The position numbers and the translations under genes were made by a program. Source: Isosphaera sp. (GTDB lineage: Bacteria > Planctomycetota > Planctomycetia > Gemmatales > Gemmataceae). From it: DNA of 46,820 nucleotides. The notes below the pieces were generated by a model that had not been told where the DNA came from, searched no databases, and saw only the letters and a program-made list of their open reading frames with translations. Positions 3,429 to 38,619 of the stretch are shown piece by piece. Position 1 is the first letter of the stretch; each line of letters begins with the position of its first letter. The stretch is from positions 1 to 46,820 of the forward strand of contig PNKH01000060.1 in the NCBI GenBank assembly GCA_013822345.1, written 5' to 3'.

Positions 3429-4979
3429 GTGTCGGCCCGCCCCCTCCCGACCCCCGACCCGCTCCCCGCCGACCCGCTCCCCGCCGACCGGCGGCTGGCC
3501 GCGGCCGTGTCCGCCCGGGTCACCCCGGCCCGGTACGGGCTGTGGTTCCAGGGCCACGCCCGGTTCGTCCCGCTCGGGGCCGAGGTGGTGGTCGCCGCCC
3601 GCACCCCGCACACCCGCGACTGGCTCGAGCACACGTTCGGCCCGGCCGTCCGGGAGGCGGTGGCCGAGGTGTGCGGACCGGGCACCGCGGTGCGGTGGGC
3701 GGTGGACGCGGAAACAGTGGTCAGTGGTCAGGAGTCAGCGGTCAGTGAAGACAAAGAGGTCGAGCAACCCCGTTTAGCCGCGACGCGGAGCGGAGCGCGG
3801 CACCCGGCCGAAGCCCCGACTCCCGACTCCCGGCCCCCGGCCCCCGTGGACCTGTTCGGCGACCCGGTCGCCCCGCCGAAGCCGAGGCCGAAGCGGCCCG
3901 AGCCGGAGGTGGTGGTCGCCCGGGCGGGGTCGGCCGGGAAGCCGGCGCGGCGGTGGAAGCTGCTCTCCGAGTTCGTGGTCGGGCCGTGCAACCGGGTGGC
4001 CCACGCGTCGGCCCTGAGCGTGGTCGAGGAGCCGGGCGACGCGGCCAACCCGCTCGTCCTGCACGGCCCGGTCGGGGTCGGCAAGACGCACCTGCTCGAG
4101 GGGATCTGCGCCGGGCTGCGGCGGCGGCCCGACCAGCGGCCGGTGTACGCGACGGCCGAGGAGTTCACCACCAAGTTCGTCGCCGCGTCGCAGCACGGGA
4201 AGATGGGGGCGTTCCGCCGGCAGTTCCGCGAGTGCTCGGCCCTGCTCCTCGACGACTTGCACTTCCTCGCCACCAAGAAGGCGACGCAGGCGGAGTTCCT
4301 CCACACCTTCGACGCCCTGGTCGCCGACGGCCGCCAGGTCGTGGTGACAACGGACTGTCACCCGCGGCTGGCGGACGAGCTGATGCCGGAGCTGGTCGAC
4401 CGGCTGCTCGGCGGGGCGGTGTGGGGGCTGCTGCCGCCGGACCCGGAGACGCGGCTGGAGATCCTGCGGAAGAAGGCGACCGGGGCGAACCCGCCGGTCC
4501 CGGACGGGGTGCTGAAGGGGCTGGCGGCGAGCCTGCGGGGGAACGTCCGGGAGCTGGAGGGGGCGGTGAACACCGTCCGCCACTACGCCAAGGTGACCGG
4601 CCGGCCGGTCGACGCCGCCGGGGCGCGGGAGGCGCTCGGGGATCTGCTGCGGCACGCGGTCCGGGTGGTGAGCGTGGCGGACGTGGACGCGGCGGTGTGC
4701 GCGGTCCTGCGGCTGGCGTCGGGGACGCTGCAGTCGAAGTCCCGGGCGTGGGCGGTGACGCACCCGCGGATGCTGGCGGTGTACCTGTGCCGGAAGCACA
4801 CGGCGGCGACGTACGGGGAGATCGCGAAGCACTTCGGGGCGAAGACGCACAGCACCGCGGTGGCGGCGGAGAAGAAGGTGCGCGGGTGGCTGGACAAGGA
4901 CGCCGGGGTGGCGATCGGCGACCGCGACTGGAAGGCGAAGGAGCTGGTCGACCGGGTCGAGCGGGAGCTGCAGCGGTGA
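3429..4979 (+). CDS. dnaA: Chromosomal replication initiator protein DnaA (or DnaA paralogue)
   Basis: An AAA+ initiator of 516 residues. Domain I (about 20-90) has a YGLWFQGH helix typical of DnaA N-termini. Domain III carries Walker A GPVGVGKT, Walker B LLLDDLHF and NVRELEGAVN at the sensor-2/lid. Domain IV (about 425-510) has the DNA-binding helix-turn-helix with a variant signature, GAKTHSTAVAAEKKV. The linker (domain II, about residues 96-136) is encoded by repeat DNA rather than an ordinary linker sequence. The start is a GTG at 3429 after GGAG. No dnaN, recF or gyrB is nearby and no cluster of DnaA boxes was seen, so a paralogue away from the origin is possible; planctomycetes often carry more than one dnaA. 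Confidence 0.85.
   Translation: MSARPLPTPDPLPADPLPADRRLAAAVSARVTPARYGLWFQGHARFVPLGAEVVVAARTPHTRDWLEHTFGPAVREAVAEVCGPGTAVRWAVDAETVVSGQESAVSEDKEVEQPRLAATRSGARHPAEAPTPDSRPPAPVDLFGDPVAPPKPRPKRPEPEVVVARAGSAGKPARRWKLLSEFVVGPCNRVAHASALSVVEEPGDAANPLVLHGPVGVGKTHLLEGICAGLRRRPDQRPVYATAEEFTTKFVAASQHGKMGAFRRQFRECSALLLDDLHFLATKKATQAEFLHTFDALVADGRQVVVTTDCHPRLADELMPELVDRLLGGAVWGLLPPDPETRLEILRKKATGANPPVPDGVLKGLAASLRGNVRELEGAVNTVRHYAKVTGRPVDAAGAREALGDLLRHAVRVVSVADVDAAVCAVLRLASGTLQSKSRAWAVTHPRMLAVYLCRKHTAATYGEIAKHFGAKTHSTAVAAEKKVRGWLDKDAGVAIGDRDWKAKELVDRVERELQR
3715..3833. repeat. Repeat element forming the DnaA linker
   Basis: The segment starts with direct repeats of a GTCAGTG/GGTCAG unit (3719-3747) and ends with two tandem GACTCCC units (3818-3831). 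It is less GC-rich than its surroundings and includes a short purine-rich stretch (GAAGACAAAGAGG). It is translated through in frame. A related GACTCCC tandem lies in the PSD1 gene at 23013-23042. Confidence 0.65.
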
Positions 4980-7869: not shown

Positions 7870-7927
7870 CGAGCCGCGACCGCCAGGGAGCGGCGGACGT
7901 GGGCCGCTCCCTGGCGGTCGCGGCTCG
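7870..7927. repeat. Palindrome with 25-bp perfect arms
   Basis: Arms 7870-7894 and 7903-7927 are perfectly complementary around an 8-bp loop. The arm begins CGAGCCGCGACCGCCAGGGA, resembling the arms at 1098 (GCGAACCCCGACCGTCAGGGA) and 31909. It lies between the WD40 gene and the TIGR02996 gene, both on the minus strand, and could influence mRNA end formation. Confidence 0.85.
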
Positions 7928-20891: not shown

Positions 20892-20943
20892 GTCCGCCGC
20901 TCGCGGCGTTGCGGCACCGCACGCAACGCCGCGAGCGGCGGAC
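20892..20943. repeat. Palindrome with 22-bp perfect arms
   Basis: Arms 20892-20913 and 20922-20943 surround an 8-bp loop. The core CCGCTCGCGGCGTTGCG is shared with the palindrome at 37120 and, with two changes, with that at 39226. It lies in the spacer between two minus-strand genes. Confidence 0.85.
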
Positions 20944-20972: not shown

Positions 20973-23444
20973 TCAGCGGACGGTGACGAAGTCGTTGTGG
21001 TTCACCAGCGCCTGCACCACCTGCAGCCGCGCCCGCCGGGTCCGGTCCGGCTCCTTCAGGTCCTTCAGCACCGCCCGCAGCCCCGCCAGCGCCTCCGCGC
21101 ACGCCGCCGCCTCGTCCGCCGTCGGCGCCGCCCCGAGCACCGCCTCGAACGCCGCCGACACGAACGCCGCGTCGTCCGCATCCTTCAACCCGGCGTGCAG
21201 CCGGTCGTTGATCTTCCCCGCCGCGGTCAGCGCCAGCTTGCTGTTCCACAGCGCCAGCGCCTGCTGCGGGACGATGCTCTCGGTCCGCCGGTAGCAGTCG
21301 AGGACGTTCGCGTCGTCGAACACCCCGAGCAGCTTGTTGTGCTCGTTGTGCGAGTGGAAGAAGTACAGCGACCGCCGCCGGCTCGCGTCCTGCTCGGCGA
21401 GCGGCACCGGCGGCCCGCCCGTTGTCAGGTCGAGGTCGCCGGCCAGGTGCAGCAGGCTGTCGCGCACCACCTGCGCCTCCATCCGCACCGGGTTCATCCG
21501 CCACAGCCAGCGGTTCTCCCCGTCGGCCTTCGCGGACGCGCCGACGTTCGCCGACGACAGGCGGTACAGGTTCGAGGTGACCATCAGCCGGTGCAGGTGC
21601 TTCAGCGACCACGGCCGACCGGGAGGGCGAGGCTCCCGCCGAGCCGCACCCCCTCCTGGCTCGGCGGGAGCCTCGCCCTCCCCGGACGGGGCGACCAGCT
21701 CGGCGGCGAGCCAGTCGAGCAACTCCGGGTGCGTCGGCGGGGCGCCCTTCCGGCCGAACTCGAACACCGCCGGCACCAGCGGCCGGCCGAAGTGCCGCAG
21801 CCAGACGTGGTTCACCGCCACCCGGGCCGTCAGCGGGTTCTTGCCGTCGGTCAGCCAGGCCGCCAGCGCCGCCCGCCGGCCGGTGCTCGTGTCCGGGAAC
21901 GGCCGGGCCTTCGACGCCGGCGTCTCGACGTTCGACTCGGCCGTCTTCACCGACCCGCGCAGCCCGGCCGGGGCGGTCGCCGGGTCCGCGACCGCGGCGT
22001 CCACCTGCGCCAGCTCCTTCTCGGCCGCCCCGACCGCGGCCCGCGCCGGCCCGGCCGCCCACCGGACGAACGCGGTCCGGTCCGCCACCGCCGCCTCGAC
22101 CGCCGCCAGCCGCTCCTTCGCCGCCGCCAGCTTCGCCGCCGCCGCCTTCCGCACCGTCGCCGCGACCTCCGGCCGCCGCAGCGGCTGGAACGCCTCCGGC
22201 GGCAGCCTCACCGGCACCGGCCTGAACCCGTCCGGGGCGAGGAACGCCGGCAGCCCGGGGAGCACGACGCGGTCCTTGTCCGGGTTCCGCTCGTCCCCGC
22301 GGACGTGGAACGGCGTCTTCGCGTCCGGGTTGCAGTCGAAGGCGCGCGGGATGCCGTTCCGCGCCGCGTCCGGCTCGCCCGGCACGAGGTCGGTGCGCAA
22401 CTGGTACGGCTCGAAGATCGCCCGGAACGCGTAGTAGTCGGCCTGCTTCACCGGGTCGTACTTGTGGTCGTGGCACTTGGCGCAGTTCAGCGTCAGCCCG
22501 AGGAACGCCTTGCCGGTGTGCTCCACCACCTCGTCGAGCCAGGTGGTGCGGTTGAACAGGAAGTACGGCCGGGCGAGGTAGCCGGTGGCCCGCAGCTCCT
22601 TCGGGTCGGCCGGGTGGAGCTCGTCGGCGGCGAGCATCCGGCGGACCATCTCGTCGTACCCGAGGTCGGCGTTGAAGCTCTCGACCACCCAGTCCCGCCA
22701 GTGCCAGATGTGCCGCTGGCTGTTGCGGAGCTCGGTCCCGAGGCCCCACCAGTCGGAGTACCGCCAGACGTCGAGGAAGTGCCGGCCCCACCGCTCGCCG
22801 TACCGCGGCGAGGCGAGGAGCCGGTCGACCACCTTCTCGTAGGCGTCCGGCGACTCGTCCTTCAGGAACGCGGCGACCTCCTCCGGCGTCGGCGGGAGGC
22901 CGGTCAGGTCGAGGTACACGCGGCGGAGCAGGACGCGCTGGTCCGCCGGCGGGGCGGGCGTGAGACCGTGCTTCTCCCACCCGGTCGCCACGAACGCGTC
23001 GATGGGGTTTCTGACCCCCGACTCCCGACCCCCGACTCCCGGCACCCGGGGCCGAGCGACCGGGCGGAACGCCCAGTGGTCGCGGGGGTCCGGCTCCGGG
23101 GCGTCGTCGGCCGGCACCTTCGCCCCCTGCTCGACCCACGCCCTGAGCTTCGCCACCTGGTCCGGCTTCAGCGGGTGGCCCTCCGGCGGCATCCGGGTCG
23201 CCTCGTTCCCGGACGACACCCGGGCGATCAGCTCGCTGTCGGCCGGCTTGCCGGGGACGACCGCCCGGGCCCGGAGCATGGCCGCGCCGGTGTCGAGGCG
23301 GAGCTTCGCCTTCTGGGCGAGGGCCCCGTGGCAGGCGTAGCACCGCTCGCGGAGCAGGGGCTTGACGTCGCGCGAATAATCGACCGGGTCGGCCGCCGGG
23401 GCGGTGGACGGGACGAGCAGCAGGATGAAGGGGATGGGTCGCAT
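20973..23444 (-). CDS. PSD1 family protein (planctomycete cytochrome c, DUF1549, DUF1553)
   Basis: A protein of 823 residues. A signal peptide (IPFILLLVPSTAPAA) precedes a PSCyt1 haem-binding domain with CYACH near residue 35 and TRMPPEGHPL. DUF1549 (about 150-360) shows VLLRRVYLDLTGLPPTPEE, SPRYGERWGRHFLD and CAKCHDHKYDP, a second Cys-x-x-Cys-His motif. DUF1553 (about 520-810) shows LAAWLTDGKNPLTARVAVN, VWLRHFGRPLV and NHNDFVTV at the end. These large exported proteins are abundant in planctomycetes and are thought to serve polysaccharide breakdown or periplasmic electron transfer. The ATG at 23444 starts the signal peptide. A 62-bp palindrome (21621-21682) encodes an Ala/Pro-rich insert in DUF1553, and a 14-bp tandem repeat (23013-23042) lies in the linker after PSCyt1. 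No DUF1501 partner is adjacent. Confidence 0.9.
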   Translation of the reverse strand: MRPIPFILLLVPSTAPAADPVDYSRDVKPLLRERCYACHGALAQKAKLRLDTGAAMLRARAVVPGKPADSELIARVSSGNEATRMPPEGHPLKPDQVAKLRAWVEQGAKVPADDAPEPDPRDHWAFRPVARPRVPGVGGRESGVRNPIDAFVATGWEKHGLTPAPPADQRVLLRRVYLDLTGLPPTPEEVAAFLKDESPDAYEKVVDRLLASPRYGERWGRHFLDVWRYSDWWGLGTELRNSQRHIWHWRDWVVESFNADLGYDEMVRRMLAADELHPADPKELRATGYLARPYFLFNRTTWLDEVVEHTGKAFLGLTLNCAKCHDHKYDPVKQADYYAFRAIFEPYQLRTDLVPGEPDAARNGIPRAFDCNPDAKTPFHVRGDERNPDKDRVVLPGLPAFLAPDGFRPVPVRLPPEAFQPLRRPEVAATVRKAAAAKLAAAKERLAAVEAAVADRTAFVRWAAGPARAAVGAAEKELAQVDAAVADPATAPAGLRGSVKTAESNVETPASKARPFPDTSTGRRAALAAWLTDGKNPLTARVAVNHVWLRHFGRPLVPAVFEFGRKGAPPTHPELLDWLAAELVAPSGEGEAPAEPGGGAARREPRPPGRPWSLKHLHRLMVTSNLYRLSSANVGASAKADGENRWLWRMNPVRMEAQVVRDSLLHLAGDLDLTTGGPPVPLAEQDASRRRSLYFFHSHNEHNKLLGVFDDANVLDCYRRTESIVPQQALALWNSKLALTAAGKINDRLHAGLKDADDAAFVSAAFEAVLGAAPTADEAAACAEALAGLRAVLKDLKEPDRTRRARLQVVQALVNHNDFVTVR
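21621..21682. repeat. In-frame palindrome in the first PSD1 gene
   Basis: Arms 21621-21645 and 21658-21682 are 25 bp, perfect, with a 12-bp loop. The arms (GGGAGGGCGAGGCTCC start) are identical to those at 38377-38438 in the FecR gene. On the minus strand it encodes GEGEAPAEP, a short variable stretch and RREPRPP. Confidence 0.92.
23013..23042. repeat. Two tandem 14-bp units in the first PSD1 gene
   Basis: GACCCCCGACTCCC occurs twice in a row, followed by GG. It encodes GVGGRESGV in the linker between the cytochrome and DUF1549 domains. The GACTCCC unit is also tandem in the DnaA linker (3818-3831). Confidence 0.7.
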
Positions 23445-24900: not shown

Positions 24901-24997
24901 GATTTCAGATTTCAGATTTGTGATTGACGAGTTCAAGACACGCGGGCAACCGGCCGGTGCTTTGAAATCGTCAATCACAAATCTGAAATCTAAAATC
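24901..24997. repeat. AT-rich inverted repeat with 37-bp arms
   Basis: Arms 24901-24937 and 24961-24997 pair with three mismatches around a 23-bp GC-rich loop. The arms (TTTCAGATTTGTGATTGACGA core) are AT-rich and stand out sharply from the GC-rich background. The right arm ends exactly where the S46 peptidase stop codon (24998-25000) begins, so it can also serve as that gene's 3' stem-loop. Confidence 0.9.
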
Positions 24998-33245: not shown

Positions 33246-35084
33246 ATGCGCCTGGGCGTCGCCATCCCGCTGGCCAACGAGGAGGGGACGGTCGGCGAGC
33301 TGCTCGACCGGGTCCTGTTCCAACTCGGCGGCGAGGACCGGGTGTTCTGCGTCACCGACCGGGCGTCGAAGGACCGGACCCGGGACCGGGTCGAGGAGCG
33401 GTCCGGTCGCGACCCGCGGGTCGTCTCGGTGTGGGCCCCGGAGAACCGGGGGGTGGTGGACGCGTACTTCCGCGGATACCGGGCGGCCCTCGCCGCCGGG
33501 GCCCGGTGGGTGCTCGAGATGGACGGCGGGCTGAGCCACCTGCCGGAAGAGATCCCGCACTTCGTCCGGGCGATGGAGAACGGGTTCGACTACGCCGGCG
33601 GGTGCCGGTTCATGCCCGGCGGCGGGTACTCCGGGCCGTGGTCCCGGTACCTGATCAGCCGCGGCGGCGGGTTCCTGGCGAACCTGCTGCTCGGGACCCA
33701 CATGCGGGACATGACCGGCGGGTACGAGTGCTTCCGCCGCGAGGCCCTGGAGGCGGTCCTGGCCGCCGGGGTGCGGAGCCGGGCCCACTTCTTCCAGACC
33801 GAGATCAAGCTGCTGATGCACTCCTGGAAGTGGACGGAGGTGCCGATCCACTACAAGAACCCGAGCAAGAGCGTCGGCCGGGCGAGCCTGGGAGACGCGT
33901 TCCGGAACCTGTGGCGGCTCGCCCGGGACCGGCACGCCCCGCCCGCGGCCGGCGCCCCGCCGCGGGTCCCGGTCGCTCGCCGTCCGAGCCCGAGCGCCAG
34001 CGAGGGTCAGCCTCACCCCTCGCTGGCGCTCGGGCTCGGACACGCGGAGGCGCCGGGGACCGGCCTGGTCGGGGTCCTGACGACGATCCAGCGGCCGACG
34101 GCGTGCGCGGAGGAGTTGGGGCGGCGGCTGGCGGCGGCCGGGGCCGGGCTGGTGGTGGTCGGGGACCGGAAGGGGCCGGACCGGTTCGACCTGCCGGGGG
34201 CGGAGTTCGTCCCGCTCGCCCGCCAGAAGGAGCTGCCGTTCCGGCTCGCCGGGCTCCTCCCGGTCGGGCACTACGCCCGGAAGAACCTCGGGTACCTGCT
34301 GGCCGTCCGCGGCGGGGCCGGGTGCGTGTACGAGACGGACGACGACAACGCCCCGAACGCCCACTGGGCCCCGCGGGCGGTGGTCACCCGGGCCCAGCCG
34401 GTCGCCCCGCGGGTGTGGATGAACGCGTACCGGGCGTTCACCGGGGAGAACATCTGGCCGCGCGGGCTGCCGCTCGACCGGGTCACCGACCCGGCGTGCG
34501 GGGCGCACGACCCGGTCACGCCGGAGGCCGAGTTCCACGCCCCGATCCAGCAGGGGCTGGCGGACCACGCCCCGGACGTGGACGCGGTCTGGCGGCTGGT
34601 GCTCGACCGCCCGTTCCACTTCCGCCGGGGGCCGAGCGTGTGGCTCCCGCCGGGCACCTGGTGCCCGTTCAACAGCCAGACCACGTGGTGGTGGCCGGAG
34701 GCGTACCCGCTGCTGTACCTGCCGAGCTTCTGCTCGTTCCGGATGACCGACATCTGGCGGAGCTTCGTCGCCCAGCGGTGCCTGTGGGAGCTGGGGCACG
34801 GGCTGGTGTTCCACGCCCCGGAGGTGGTGCAGGACCGGAACCCGCACAACCTCGTGCGGGACTTCAAGGACGAGGTCCCGGGATACCTGGGGAACGACGG
34901 GATCGTGGCCCGGCTGTCGGACCTGTCGCTGCGGCCCGGGGCCGGGGCGGTGGCCGACAACCTGGTCCGGTGCTACGAAGCGCTGACCGCGGCCGGGTAC
35001 TTCCCGGCGGACGAGCTGCCGCTGGTCCGCGGGTGGGTGGAGGACGTGGGGGCCGCGGCGACCGCGGCCGCCCGGGCGGCCTGA
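33246..35084 (+). CDS. Fusion of a GT2 glycosyltransferase and a STELLO-like (DUF288) domain
   Basis: A protein of 612 residues. Residues 1-230 are a family 2 glycosyltransferase of the dolichol-phosphate-mannose type: VAIPLANEEGTVGELLD, VWAPENRGVVDAYFRGY, WVLEMDGGLSHLPEEI (metal-binding acidic site), FMPGGGY and DMTGGYECFRREAL. Residues about 270-600 resemble STELLO/DUF288: LTTIQRPT, VVVGDRKGP, ARKNLGYLLAV and CVYETDDDNAP, with the acidic triplet near 363-366. The two parts are joined by residues 246-265, which are encoded by a palindrome (33982-34041). STELLO proteins are known from plant Golgi, where they are needed for cellulose-synthase assembly; here it is probably a second glycosyltransferase activity (inference). 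The ATG at 33246 precedes the GT2 fold directly. The downstream gene follows after 16 bases. Confidence 0.8.
   Translation: MRLGVAIPLANEEGTVGELLDRVLFQLGGEDRVFCVTDRASKDRTRDRVEERSGRDPRVVSVWAPENRGVVDAYFRGYRAALAAGARWVLEMDGGLSHLPEEIPHFVRAMENGFDYAGGCRFMPGGGYSGPWSRYLISRGGGFLANLLLGTHMRDMTGGYECFRREALEAVLAAGVRSRAHFFQTEIKLLMHSWKWTEVPIHYKNPSKSVGRASLGDAFRNLWRLARDRHAPPAAGAPPRVPVARRPSPSASEGQPHPSLALGLGHAEAPGTGLVGVLTTIQRPTACAEELGRRLAAAGAGLVVVGDRKGPDRFDLPGAEFVPLARQKELPFRLAGLLPVGHYARKNLGYLLAVRGGAGCVYETDDDNAPNAHWAPRAVVTRAQPVAPRVWMNAYRAFTGENIWPRGLPLDRVTDPACGAHDPVTPEAEFHAPIQQGLADHAPDVDAVWRLVLDRPFHFRRGPSVWLPPGTWCPFNSQTTWWWPEAYPLLYLPSFCSFRMTDIWRSFVAQRCLWELGHGLVFHAPEVVQDRNPHNLVRDFKDEVPGYLGNDGIVARLSDLSLRPGAGAVADNLVRCYEALTAAGYFPADELPLVRGWVEDVGAAATAAARAA
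33982..34041. repeat. Palindrome at the domain junction of the GT2-STELLO fusion
   Basis: Arms 33982-34006 and 34017-34041 are perfect over 25 bp with a 10-bp loop. The arm (CGAGCCCGAGCGCCAGCGAG) resembles the 31909/43880 family. It is read in frame as PSPSASEG, a short turn and SLALGLG. Confidence 0.92.
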
Positions 35085-37119: not shown

Positions 37120-37179
37120 CGGGTCGCCGCTCGCGGCGTTGCGGGCGACACCGCCCGCAACGCCGCGAGCGGCGACCCG
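37120..37179. repeat. Palindrome with 28-bp perfect arms
   Basis: Arms 37120-37147 and 37152-37179 are perfect, with a 4-bp loop. The arm CGGGTCGCCGCTCGCGGCGT is a longer form of that at 20892. It fills almost the whole gap between the FecR protein stop and the DUF3303 ribosome site. Confidence 0.92.
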
Positions 37180-37185
37180 ACACGG

Positions 37186-38619
37186 TCACCTCCCCTCGAC
37201 GACCAGCTTCAGGGCCGGCGGCGGCAGGGTCGGGTGGTCCCGACCGGCGAACCCGTGGACGTAGTCGTTCCGCCCGCTCCCGGGCGTGTCCCGCACCAGG
37301 ATGAACGTCGCGAACGGGGCCGCCCGGCCGTTCAGGAACGCCGCCAGGTCCGGGCCGCCGACCGACCACACCCCGGTCTGCGCCCCCTGCGGCACCCGGA
37401 ACTCGCCGACCTTCACCGTCTTCGCCGGGTCGACCGCCGCCCCGCCCGGGGCGTTCGCCGGGGCGTTCTCCCACCGCAGCCCGTTCTCCGGCCAGTCGTT
37501 CAGCCGCTCGTCGGTCAGCCCGTAGACGGAGAAGGTGGCGTCCGGCACCTCGGACGCGAACCCCCACCCGGTCGGCGTCTGGGTGAACGACAGTTGGGCG
37601 TCCACCACCCGCAGCCCGGCGACCGGGGCGAGGTCGAACCCGGCGTACCCCTTCCGGTTGTAGTCGGCGTGCGCGGCGACGGTGGACTTCACCAGGATGA
37701 GCACGTCCGACCGGTGGGTGGTGCCCCACCTCCCGGCGACGTAGGTGTCCTTGCCGCGGCCGGCGGCGGTGGTGATGGTGACGAGCCGCTGCCCGGGGCG
37801 GAGGGTCGGGGGCGGCGGGGCGGGTTGCGGCCCCTCGGCCCTCGGGTCGAGGGCGTCGGCCCGGTCCGCGGTGAACCGCATCCCCCGGCCGGTCACCAAC
37901 TCCTCGACCCGGCCGGCGCCGTGGGTCACGTCGACCCGGCCGGAGAAGACCTGCACGTCGGCCCGGTCGTCCCCGACGCTCACCCCGAACTCGGTCCCGA
38001 AGTCGCGGACCGCGGCGGTCGGGGTCTCGACCACGAACCCGTGGGCCGCCTCCGGGCACCGGGCGACGAGCCGGCCGGCGCGCAGCCGGCACCGGTCGCC
38101 GGCGAGCAGCTCCAGGTCGGCCGGGCCTTCGAGCCGCAGCTCCGCCCCGTTGTCGAACACGATCCGGGCGACGCCCTCGGCGAGCCGCAGCCGACCCGCC
38201 CCGAGGCGGGAGCCGTCGGCGGTCGGCAGCGTGCCGCTCTGCCAGGTGCAGCCGCCCGCGTCGGTGAGCTTGGCGAAGTCGGTCGGCGGCGCGGGGCCGG
38301 TGCGGGTGAAGGCGAACACCCCCGCGGCGACGAGCAGGCCCGCGGCGACGGCCCACCCGGCCCACGCGAGCCGCCGGGGAGGGCGAGGCTCCCGCCGAGC
38401 CGGGTGGGCGCGCGGCTCGGCGGGAGCCTCGCCCTCCCGGGCCAGCGTCCGGGGGTCCGCCGCCGCCCACACCAGTGCGGCGTGCAGGTTCAGGTGCTCG
38501 ACCAGGTACCGCCGGGCGGCCGGGTCGGCGCGGCACACCGCCTCCAGCCGGGCGGCGTCGGCAGGGGTCAGCGTCCCCTCGACGGCGGCGTCGCACAGGG
38601 CGCGGAGGTCGTCGGTCAC
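37186..38619 (-). CDS. FecR-type anti-sigma/regulator with C-terminal DNRLRE-like (CBM96-like) domain
   Basis: A protein of 477 residues. The N-terminal helical region (DDLRALCDAAVEGTLTPADAARLEAV, HLNLHAALVW) resembles an anti-sigma domain. A membrane helix (AWAGWAVAAGLLVAAGVFAF) lies at about 77-97. The FecR domain (about 130-250) shows FDNGAELRLEGPADLELLAGDRCRLRAGRLVA, TPTAAVRDFGTEFGV and VQVFSGRVDV. The C-terminal domain (285-477) has KDTYVAGRWG, DVLILVKS, YAGFDLAPV and LRWENAP, suggesting DNRLRE/CBM96 carbohydrate binding. The start GTG (38619) overlaps the sigma gene stop as GTGA. A palindrome (38377-38438) encodes EGEAPAEP...RREPRPP just before the membrane helix. I infer that the outer domain senses or binds glycan and controls the neighbouring sigma factor. 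Confidence 0.82.
   Translation of the reverse strand: MTDDLRALCDAAVEGTLTPADAARLEAVCRADPAARRYLVEHLNLHAALVWAAADPRTLAREGEAPAEPRAHPARREPRPPRRLAWAGWAVAAGLLVAAGVFAFTRTGPAPPTDFAKLTDAGGCTWQSGTLPTADGSRLGAGRLRLAEGVARIVFDNGAELRLEGPADLELLAGDRCRLRAGRLVARCPEAAHGFVVETPTAAVRDFGTEFGVSVGDDRADVQVFSGRVDVTHGAGRVEELVTGRGMRFTADRADALDPRAEGPQPAPPPPTLRPGQRLVTITTAAGRGKDTYVAGRWGTTHRSDVLILVKSTVAAHADYNRKGYAGFDLAPVAGLRVVDAQLSFTQTPTGWGFASEVPDATFSVYGLTDERLNDWPENGLRWENAPANAPGGAAVDPAKTVKVGEFRVPQGAQTGVWSVGGPDLAAFLNGRAAPFATFILVRDTPGSGRNDYVHGFAGRDHPTLPPPALKLVVEGR
38377..38438. repeat. In-frame palindrome in the FecR gene
   Basis: Arms 38377-38401 and 38414-38438, 25 bp, are perfect and identical to the arms at 21621-21682. The 12-bp loop is different in sequence but the same length. 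It encodes the same peptide on the minus strand as in the PSD1 gene. Confidence 0.93.

Follow-up and report, generated by a model that had tools for sequence, protein, structure and literature searches.

Does a palindrome that lies between the two domains of a fusion protein tell how these domains came together? The question is raised by a GT2-STELLO fusion gene in the DNA of Isosphaera sp. analysed here, a stretch of 46,820 nucleotides (hereafter, the window). A preliminary description of the window had offered two readings. Either the palindrome provided the linker that fused two genes, or it landed in the only place that would tolerate it. The features on which the question turns are listed below.

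33246-35084, plus strand: GT2-STELLO fusion gene, 612 aa, which hosts the palindrome in frame (ATG at 33246, stop at 35084)
33258-33758, plus strand: GT2 domain PF00535 (residues 5-171), a match to Pfam Glycos_transf_2
33921-34064, plus strand: linker between the domains (about residues 226-273), variable and with poor conservation among five orthologues
33982-34006, plus strand: left arm of the palindrome, 25 nt, from the inverted-repeat search; a family arm
34007-34016, no strand: loop of the palindrome, 10 nt, of varying length and sequence among copies
34017-34041, minus strand: right arm of the palindrome, 25 nt, which on this strand reads the same as the left arm
34065-35081, plus strand: STELLO-like part (about residues 274-612), with PF03385 at residues 499-600; a separate gene in other phyla

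The palindrome at 33982-34041 is a real element. Its two arms of 25 nt are 100% complementary and stand 10 nt apart, which confirms the arm length and position first reported for it. By a simple estimate that treats bases as independent, a sequence with the length and composition of the window is expected to hold about 6e-7 perfect 25-nt inverted repeats with a loop of up to 60 nt. As single-stranded DNA, the region from 33970 to 34053 folds at -43.5 kcal/mol, compared to a mean of -22.65 kcal/mol in 200 shuffles (z -7.24), none of which folded as well. The corresponding RNA of 84 nt reaches -68.5 kcal/mol (z -7.35).

The palindrome had also been described as sitting between the GT2 and STELLO domains, and the alignment of six fused proteins bears this out. 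Conservation ends at about residue 225 and restarts at about residue 274, and the palindrome, codons 246-266 of the 612-aa frame, falls inside this gap. Residues 231 to 273 form neither helix nor strand in an AlphaFold model that is itself poor (mean pLDDT 46, five sequences). The 60 nt amount to 20 codons, which are open in the frame used, so that an insertion in such a loose linker leaves the protein readable. Pro/Ala-rich sequence remains on both sides of the insert. From W223 to T285 the window protein has 63 residues, compared to 47-53 in five fused orthologues. The excess is thus 10-16 residues rather than 20, which indicates that some further change of the linker also took place.

About 65 copies of a REP-type hairpin element exist in the genome, this palindrome among them. 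When up to three mismatches were allowed, the arm pattern matched 65 times per strand in the 7.47-Mb genome, and the reversed control pattern had no match. We read 55 of the roughly 65 copies, a set that is biased towards well-preserved ones, as about ten fall outside it. The family core is GTCCGAGCCCGAGCGC[C/G]AGCGAGGG, followed by a loop and the reverse complement, and mostly spans 60-61 nt. The arms are conserved, whereas the loop varies in both sequence and length. Copies with a G instead of a C at the variable position usually have it in both arms. The flanks could be aligned for 51 of the 55 copies, with four omitted for their differing outer arm. In 99 of these 102 flanks, a G directly precedes the TCCGAG of the core. 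A GTAG/GTGG consensus is absent from the aligned flanks and core of the 51 copies. A GTGA near the copies was considered as a part of the element and rejected, as its distance from the core varies from 8 to 25 nt and the GTGA fits the stop codons of neighbouring genes. By eye, the window copy has no evident target-site duplication.

The copies have a marked preference for certain gene neighbourhoods, based on gene calls from a codon model trained on the genome's own open frames. Convergent genes border 26 of the 55 copies, tandem genes 12 and divergent genes 1; 3 copies are located well within a frame and 2 at its edge, and the other 11 are undecided, with one or neither side coding. For comparison, of 2000 random 60-mers from the same loci, 1316 fell well within frames and 10 at an edge; 20 were convergent, 24 divergent and 101 tandem, and 529 had other placements. 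The family copies avoid reading frames and divergent gaps and favour convergent gene ends (26 versus 1, binomial p 4e-7). Such a placement, mostly extragenic and away from divergent promoters, is a trait of REP-type elements.

What could have moved these copies? A search of the genome with Pfam Y1_Tnp pointed to five places, and one of them, at C35:24780-24971, lies between palindrome copies at C35:24607 and C35:25199. The gene is single-copy, and its 179-aa frame contains HVH and YTLHRQ motifs, as read by eye. A Y1/HUH transposase gene closely flanked by the same hairpin is typical of REP systems, and the layout resembles that of a REPtron. The known families match it weakly, as expected for a divergent class. 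The transposase scores 22.9 against PF01797 (cut-off 23; 23.4 in the genome-wide search), 21.5 bits against NF033573 (cut-off 55) and 17.5 bits against NF047646, the REP_Tyr_transpos family of NCBI (cut-off 80). These scores do not fit an IS200/IS605 insertion sequence, for which that of NF033573 is too low and that of PF01797 borderline. Nor does a canonical GTAG REP (RAYT class 2) fit, given the low REP_Tyr_transpos score and a family consensus that lacks the 5' GT[AG]G foot. Judged from the layout, the C35 transposase most likely mobilises the copies of the family. Enzymes of this kind would nick and join single-stranded hairpins, by analogy with REP systems.

Related transposases were found as 20 frames, including the one on C35, in 11 of 19 genomes of the genus. 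Palindromes flank ten of them on both sides and three on one side, and none were found at seven; the seven most similar transposases all have both. The flanking arms differ by lineage. They are nearly the same in G015 and G018, with 71% identical transposases, related in G019 (55%), and different in further relatives. These planctomycete HUH transposases with lineage-specific palindrome arms form a useful set for studying hairpin recognition. The genome G022 was considered as a second carrier of the same family and rejected. What matched there, 55 times, is the inner 15-nt arm pattern, and the copy that was read has other outer arms, so that its repeat probably represents a different family. 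G022 has those inner-arm matches but no close transposase, and its sole match (38%) is flanked by a different palindrome.

To order the events, we compared fused and unfused relatives of the host gene. A search of 95 genomes of the taxonomic family, including that of the window, yielded full-length fused orthologues without stops in five others (G017, G026, G022, G019 and G020), all of the same GTDB genus and with 75-80% identity. In the other 89 genomes, the matches listed were partial: those in G032 and G093 cover the STELLO side, and the rest the GT2 side. The five orthologues have short Pro/Ala-rich linkers of varying sequence. An inverted repeat of at least 12 nt is absent from the junction in all five; two lack even one of 10 nt, and three have a weak one of 10 or 11 nt. 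Arm-like stretches, with up to six mismatches allowed, were absent from the gene in each of the five, compared to two in the window gene. That fused orthologues with an unrelated linker and no palindrome exist is what the preliminary description had named as evidence against the element as maker of the fusion. It had looked for them in distant planctomycetes, while these five are congeneric, and we consider that they suffice for ordering the events.

The fusion protein was also used to scan 84,980 species genomes, which gave 20 loci. Four of these are fused (L061-L064), apparently on contigs that already account for four of the five congeneric orthologues. For this reason, we count five fused orthologues (with G026) and not nine, as L061-L064 and L032, L035, L034 and L036 are apparently the same four contigs. 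In another four loci, the GT2 and STELLO genes adjoin in different frames or across a stop, one in a planctomycete MAG (L065) and three in acidobacterial MAGs (L068, L070 and L071). The positions of their gene ends and starts are as follows.

L065: GT2 stop at 4837, first STELLO ATG at 4734
L068: GT2 stop at 2524, first STELLO ATG at 2500
L070: GT2 stop at 1531, first STELLO ATG at 1557
L071: GT2 stop at 4714, first STELLO ATG at 4782

The two genes thus overlap or stand 25-67 nt apart. Relatives in which the two parts are separate and adjacent had been proposed as a check, and these four have no palindrome where the genes meet. Their junctions contain neither an inverted repeat of at least 10 nt nor an arm-like stretch. 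The contig of L065 has a coverage of 1.26 and its frame break may be an assembly frameshift; the acidobacterial cases are independent of it. In L073 (Geomonas), both genes are present with another open frame between them. L076 has the GT2 gene and no STELLO match in the flank examined. In the remaining 10 of the 20 loci, STELLO is present and the flank examined shows no convincing GT2 match, with a weak one of 84 residues in L077.

A tree built from the STELLO part groups the window and the five fused rows in one clade (support 100/99), with L065 as its sister at 89/86, which is below the star threshold. The tree excludes L066, whose matched stretch held a stop. Judged from these comparisons, the palindrome did not make the GT2-STELLO fusion, and the fusion is the older of the two. 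The simplest history that they suggest runs from adjacent genes to a fusion, and then to a palindrome on the branch of the window, the insertion being read from its absence in the nearest fused orthologues, which are only 75-80% identical.

We regard it as very probable that a REP-type copy was inserted, likely by the C35 transposase, into the linker of a fusion that already existed, and was tolerated there. Neighbouring GT2 and STELLO genes would have fused, with a Pro/Ala-rich linker, in the ancestor of the window genome and the five congeneric genomes. Later, on the branch of the window, the C35 Y1/HUH tyrosine transposase, as the presumed mobiliser of the palindrome copies, would have placed a 60-nt (20-codon) copy in this linker without shifting the frame. 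The copy would have survived because the linker tolerates changes in length and sequence, and its insertion was presumably neutral. The comparisons thus settle, for one domain junction, that neighbouring genes came first, then the fusion and then the element.

Could the element instead be kept for a function on site? An RNA hairpin between the two domains could slow or stop the ribosome or polymerase, or affect the stability of the mRNA. The folding energy of the 84-nt RNA given above is that of a very stable hairpin, and the family favours the 3' ends of genes, where hairpins could affect transcripts. However, the five orthologues do without the element, a terminator-like role would cut the expression of the STELLO half, and the two other intragenic copies, located in unrelated genes, argue for survival by chance. 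We consider such a function quite unlikely.

The reading in which the palindrome was inserted between adjacent genes, removed the stop, joined the frames and supplied the linker fares worse, and we hold it to be very improbable. In its favour, the element lies in the junction and has no stop in the frame used, and the two genes did indeed adjoin or overlap before they were fused. Nevertheless, the five fused orthologues carry neither the palindrome nor an arm-like remnant and share one clade with the window, which would require independent fusions or five losses, and Pro/Ala-rich sequence persists on either side of the insert in the window. This reading, the first of the two originally offered, is contradicted by the differently composed linkers of the five orthologues and by the four unfused relatives. 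A repeat at a domain junction, therefore, need not be the cause of the fusion. That no element is involved, and the palindrome arose by chance from the coding of a GC-rich Pro/Ala/Ser linker, is a negligible prospect. Repetitive as such linkers are, about 65 copies exist in the genome where the reversed control has none, a perfect repeat this long is expected 6e-7 times in the window, and two of the copies flank a transposase gene.

Returning to an insertion that was tolerated, two other copies of the family well inside frames paint a similar picture. The copy at C9:94858 sits shortly ahead of a GT2 domain (Pfam 247-410), as an insert at about residues 219-240 that is absent in all seven aligned orthologues. 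The copy at C99:21309 is placed between hydrophobic segments of a protein that has no Pfam match, and is absent in all three aligned orthologues; a fourth, distant one (L173, 34% identity) gave no row in the alignment. Hence, landing in a tolerant place is supported for the window copy, while the stronger wording, that this was the only such place, does not hold, given these two copies in other frames. One of the seven orthologues of the C9 glycosyltransferase, that of G026 (L164, G026:C1 near 6335989-6336015), carries another insert in this linker, which includes a 27-nt repeat with 20 occurrences in the G026 genome and none for the control pattern.

The three intragenic copies share one reading frame, which yields SPSASEG. 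With three frames available, such an agreement has a chance of 1 in 9, and is weak evidence. It is conceivable, though rather unlikely, that the hairpin is shaped to be harmless when translated, as the one frame (...SPSASEG...) gives a linker peptide of small residues, rich in Pro, Ser and Ala, and all three copies lie at, or close to, junctions between domains or helices. If so, these elements would be a source of ready-made changes in linker length in multi-domain proteins, and not of fusions. In either case, the three copies show that a REP-like hairpin can persist in frame within a gene. Rickettsia palindromic elements (RPEs) are more often intragenic, and to our knowledge no transposase is known for them. 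They also differ from the family described here in sequence and phylum, and in our genome just 3 of the 55 copies are well inside frames. What the two have in common, as RPEs are described in PMC3733652, is that they are palindromic mobile DNA located in frame within protein-coding genes.

The finding is a well-dated further case of a known, REP-type kind, which resembles published class 3 TnpA-Y1 systems. According to PMC6006769, class 3 TnpA-Y1 occur principally in Planctomycetes, Acidobacteria and Proteobacteria, have a Y----Q signature, and are flanked by high-copy hairpins with a CnGA foot. The C35 protein likewise is an HUH transposase with this signature (here YTLHRQ), and a CCGA is found at the base of the family arms. 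The motifs suggest that it likely belongs to class 3, and this CCGA may fit as well. Unlike the hairpins outlined there (PMC6006769), the window family has long, symmetrical 25-nt arms that pair perfectly, and its CCGA is part of the paired stem on either side, whereas the class 3 foot is a 5' CnGA. The GTAG/CGTC REPs described in PMC3733652 are also high-copy hairpins, mostly in convergent and unidirectional gaps. Some of them lie in frame within genes, and for these a neutral insertion into flexible linkers or loops was already suggested there. The window family has the same gap preference and the same occasional in-frame copies. In contrast, those REPs are 20-40 bp long with GTAG or CGTC at one end, while the copies of the family have about 60 nt and neither tag in their consensus (PMC3733652). 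The REPINs and REP-RAYT systems of Pseudomonas and E. coli (PMC3116915, PMC2817692) similarly combine hairpin repeats with a single-copy Y1 transposase. They differ in the transposase, as that of C35 falls far below the REP_Tyr_transpos cut-off. Among the titles listed in a search of the literature, there was no paper on a Gemmata palindromic repeat family like that of the window and no report of gene fusions made by palindromes, by which we do not claim their absence from print.

Other palindromes are present in the window. One at 38373-38442, with 30-nt arms (97%), is in frame in a minus-strand gene with a FecR domain, between the N-terminal part and a hydrophobic segment that precedes this domain. 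The palindrome at 21621-21682 is similar to it. The arms of the one at 7870-7927 have 14-mers in common with the palindromes around Y1 transposases of G019, G012 and G013, and those at 37120-37179 and 20892-20943 share 14-mers with L183, around a weak Y1_Tnp match on contig C28 of the same genome. By eye, the palindrome at 1098-1159 is like the arms of the copy read in G022 (GGCGAACCC...GGGGGTG). An A+T-richer inverted repeat at 24901-24997, with 41-nt arms (90%), has fifteen 14-mers in common with L182, located on contig C14 of the same genome, where a Y1_Tnp-like match is flanked by yet another palindrome.
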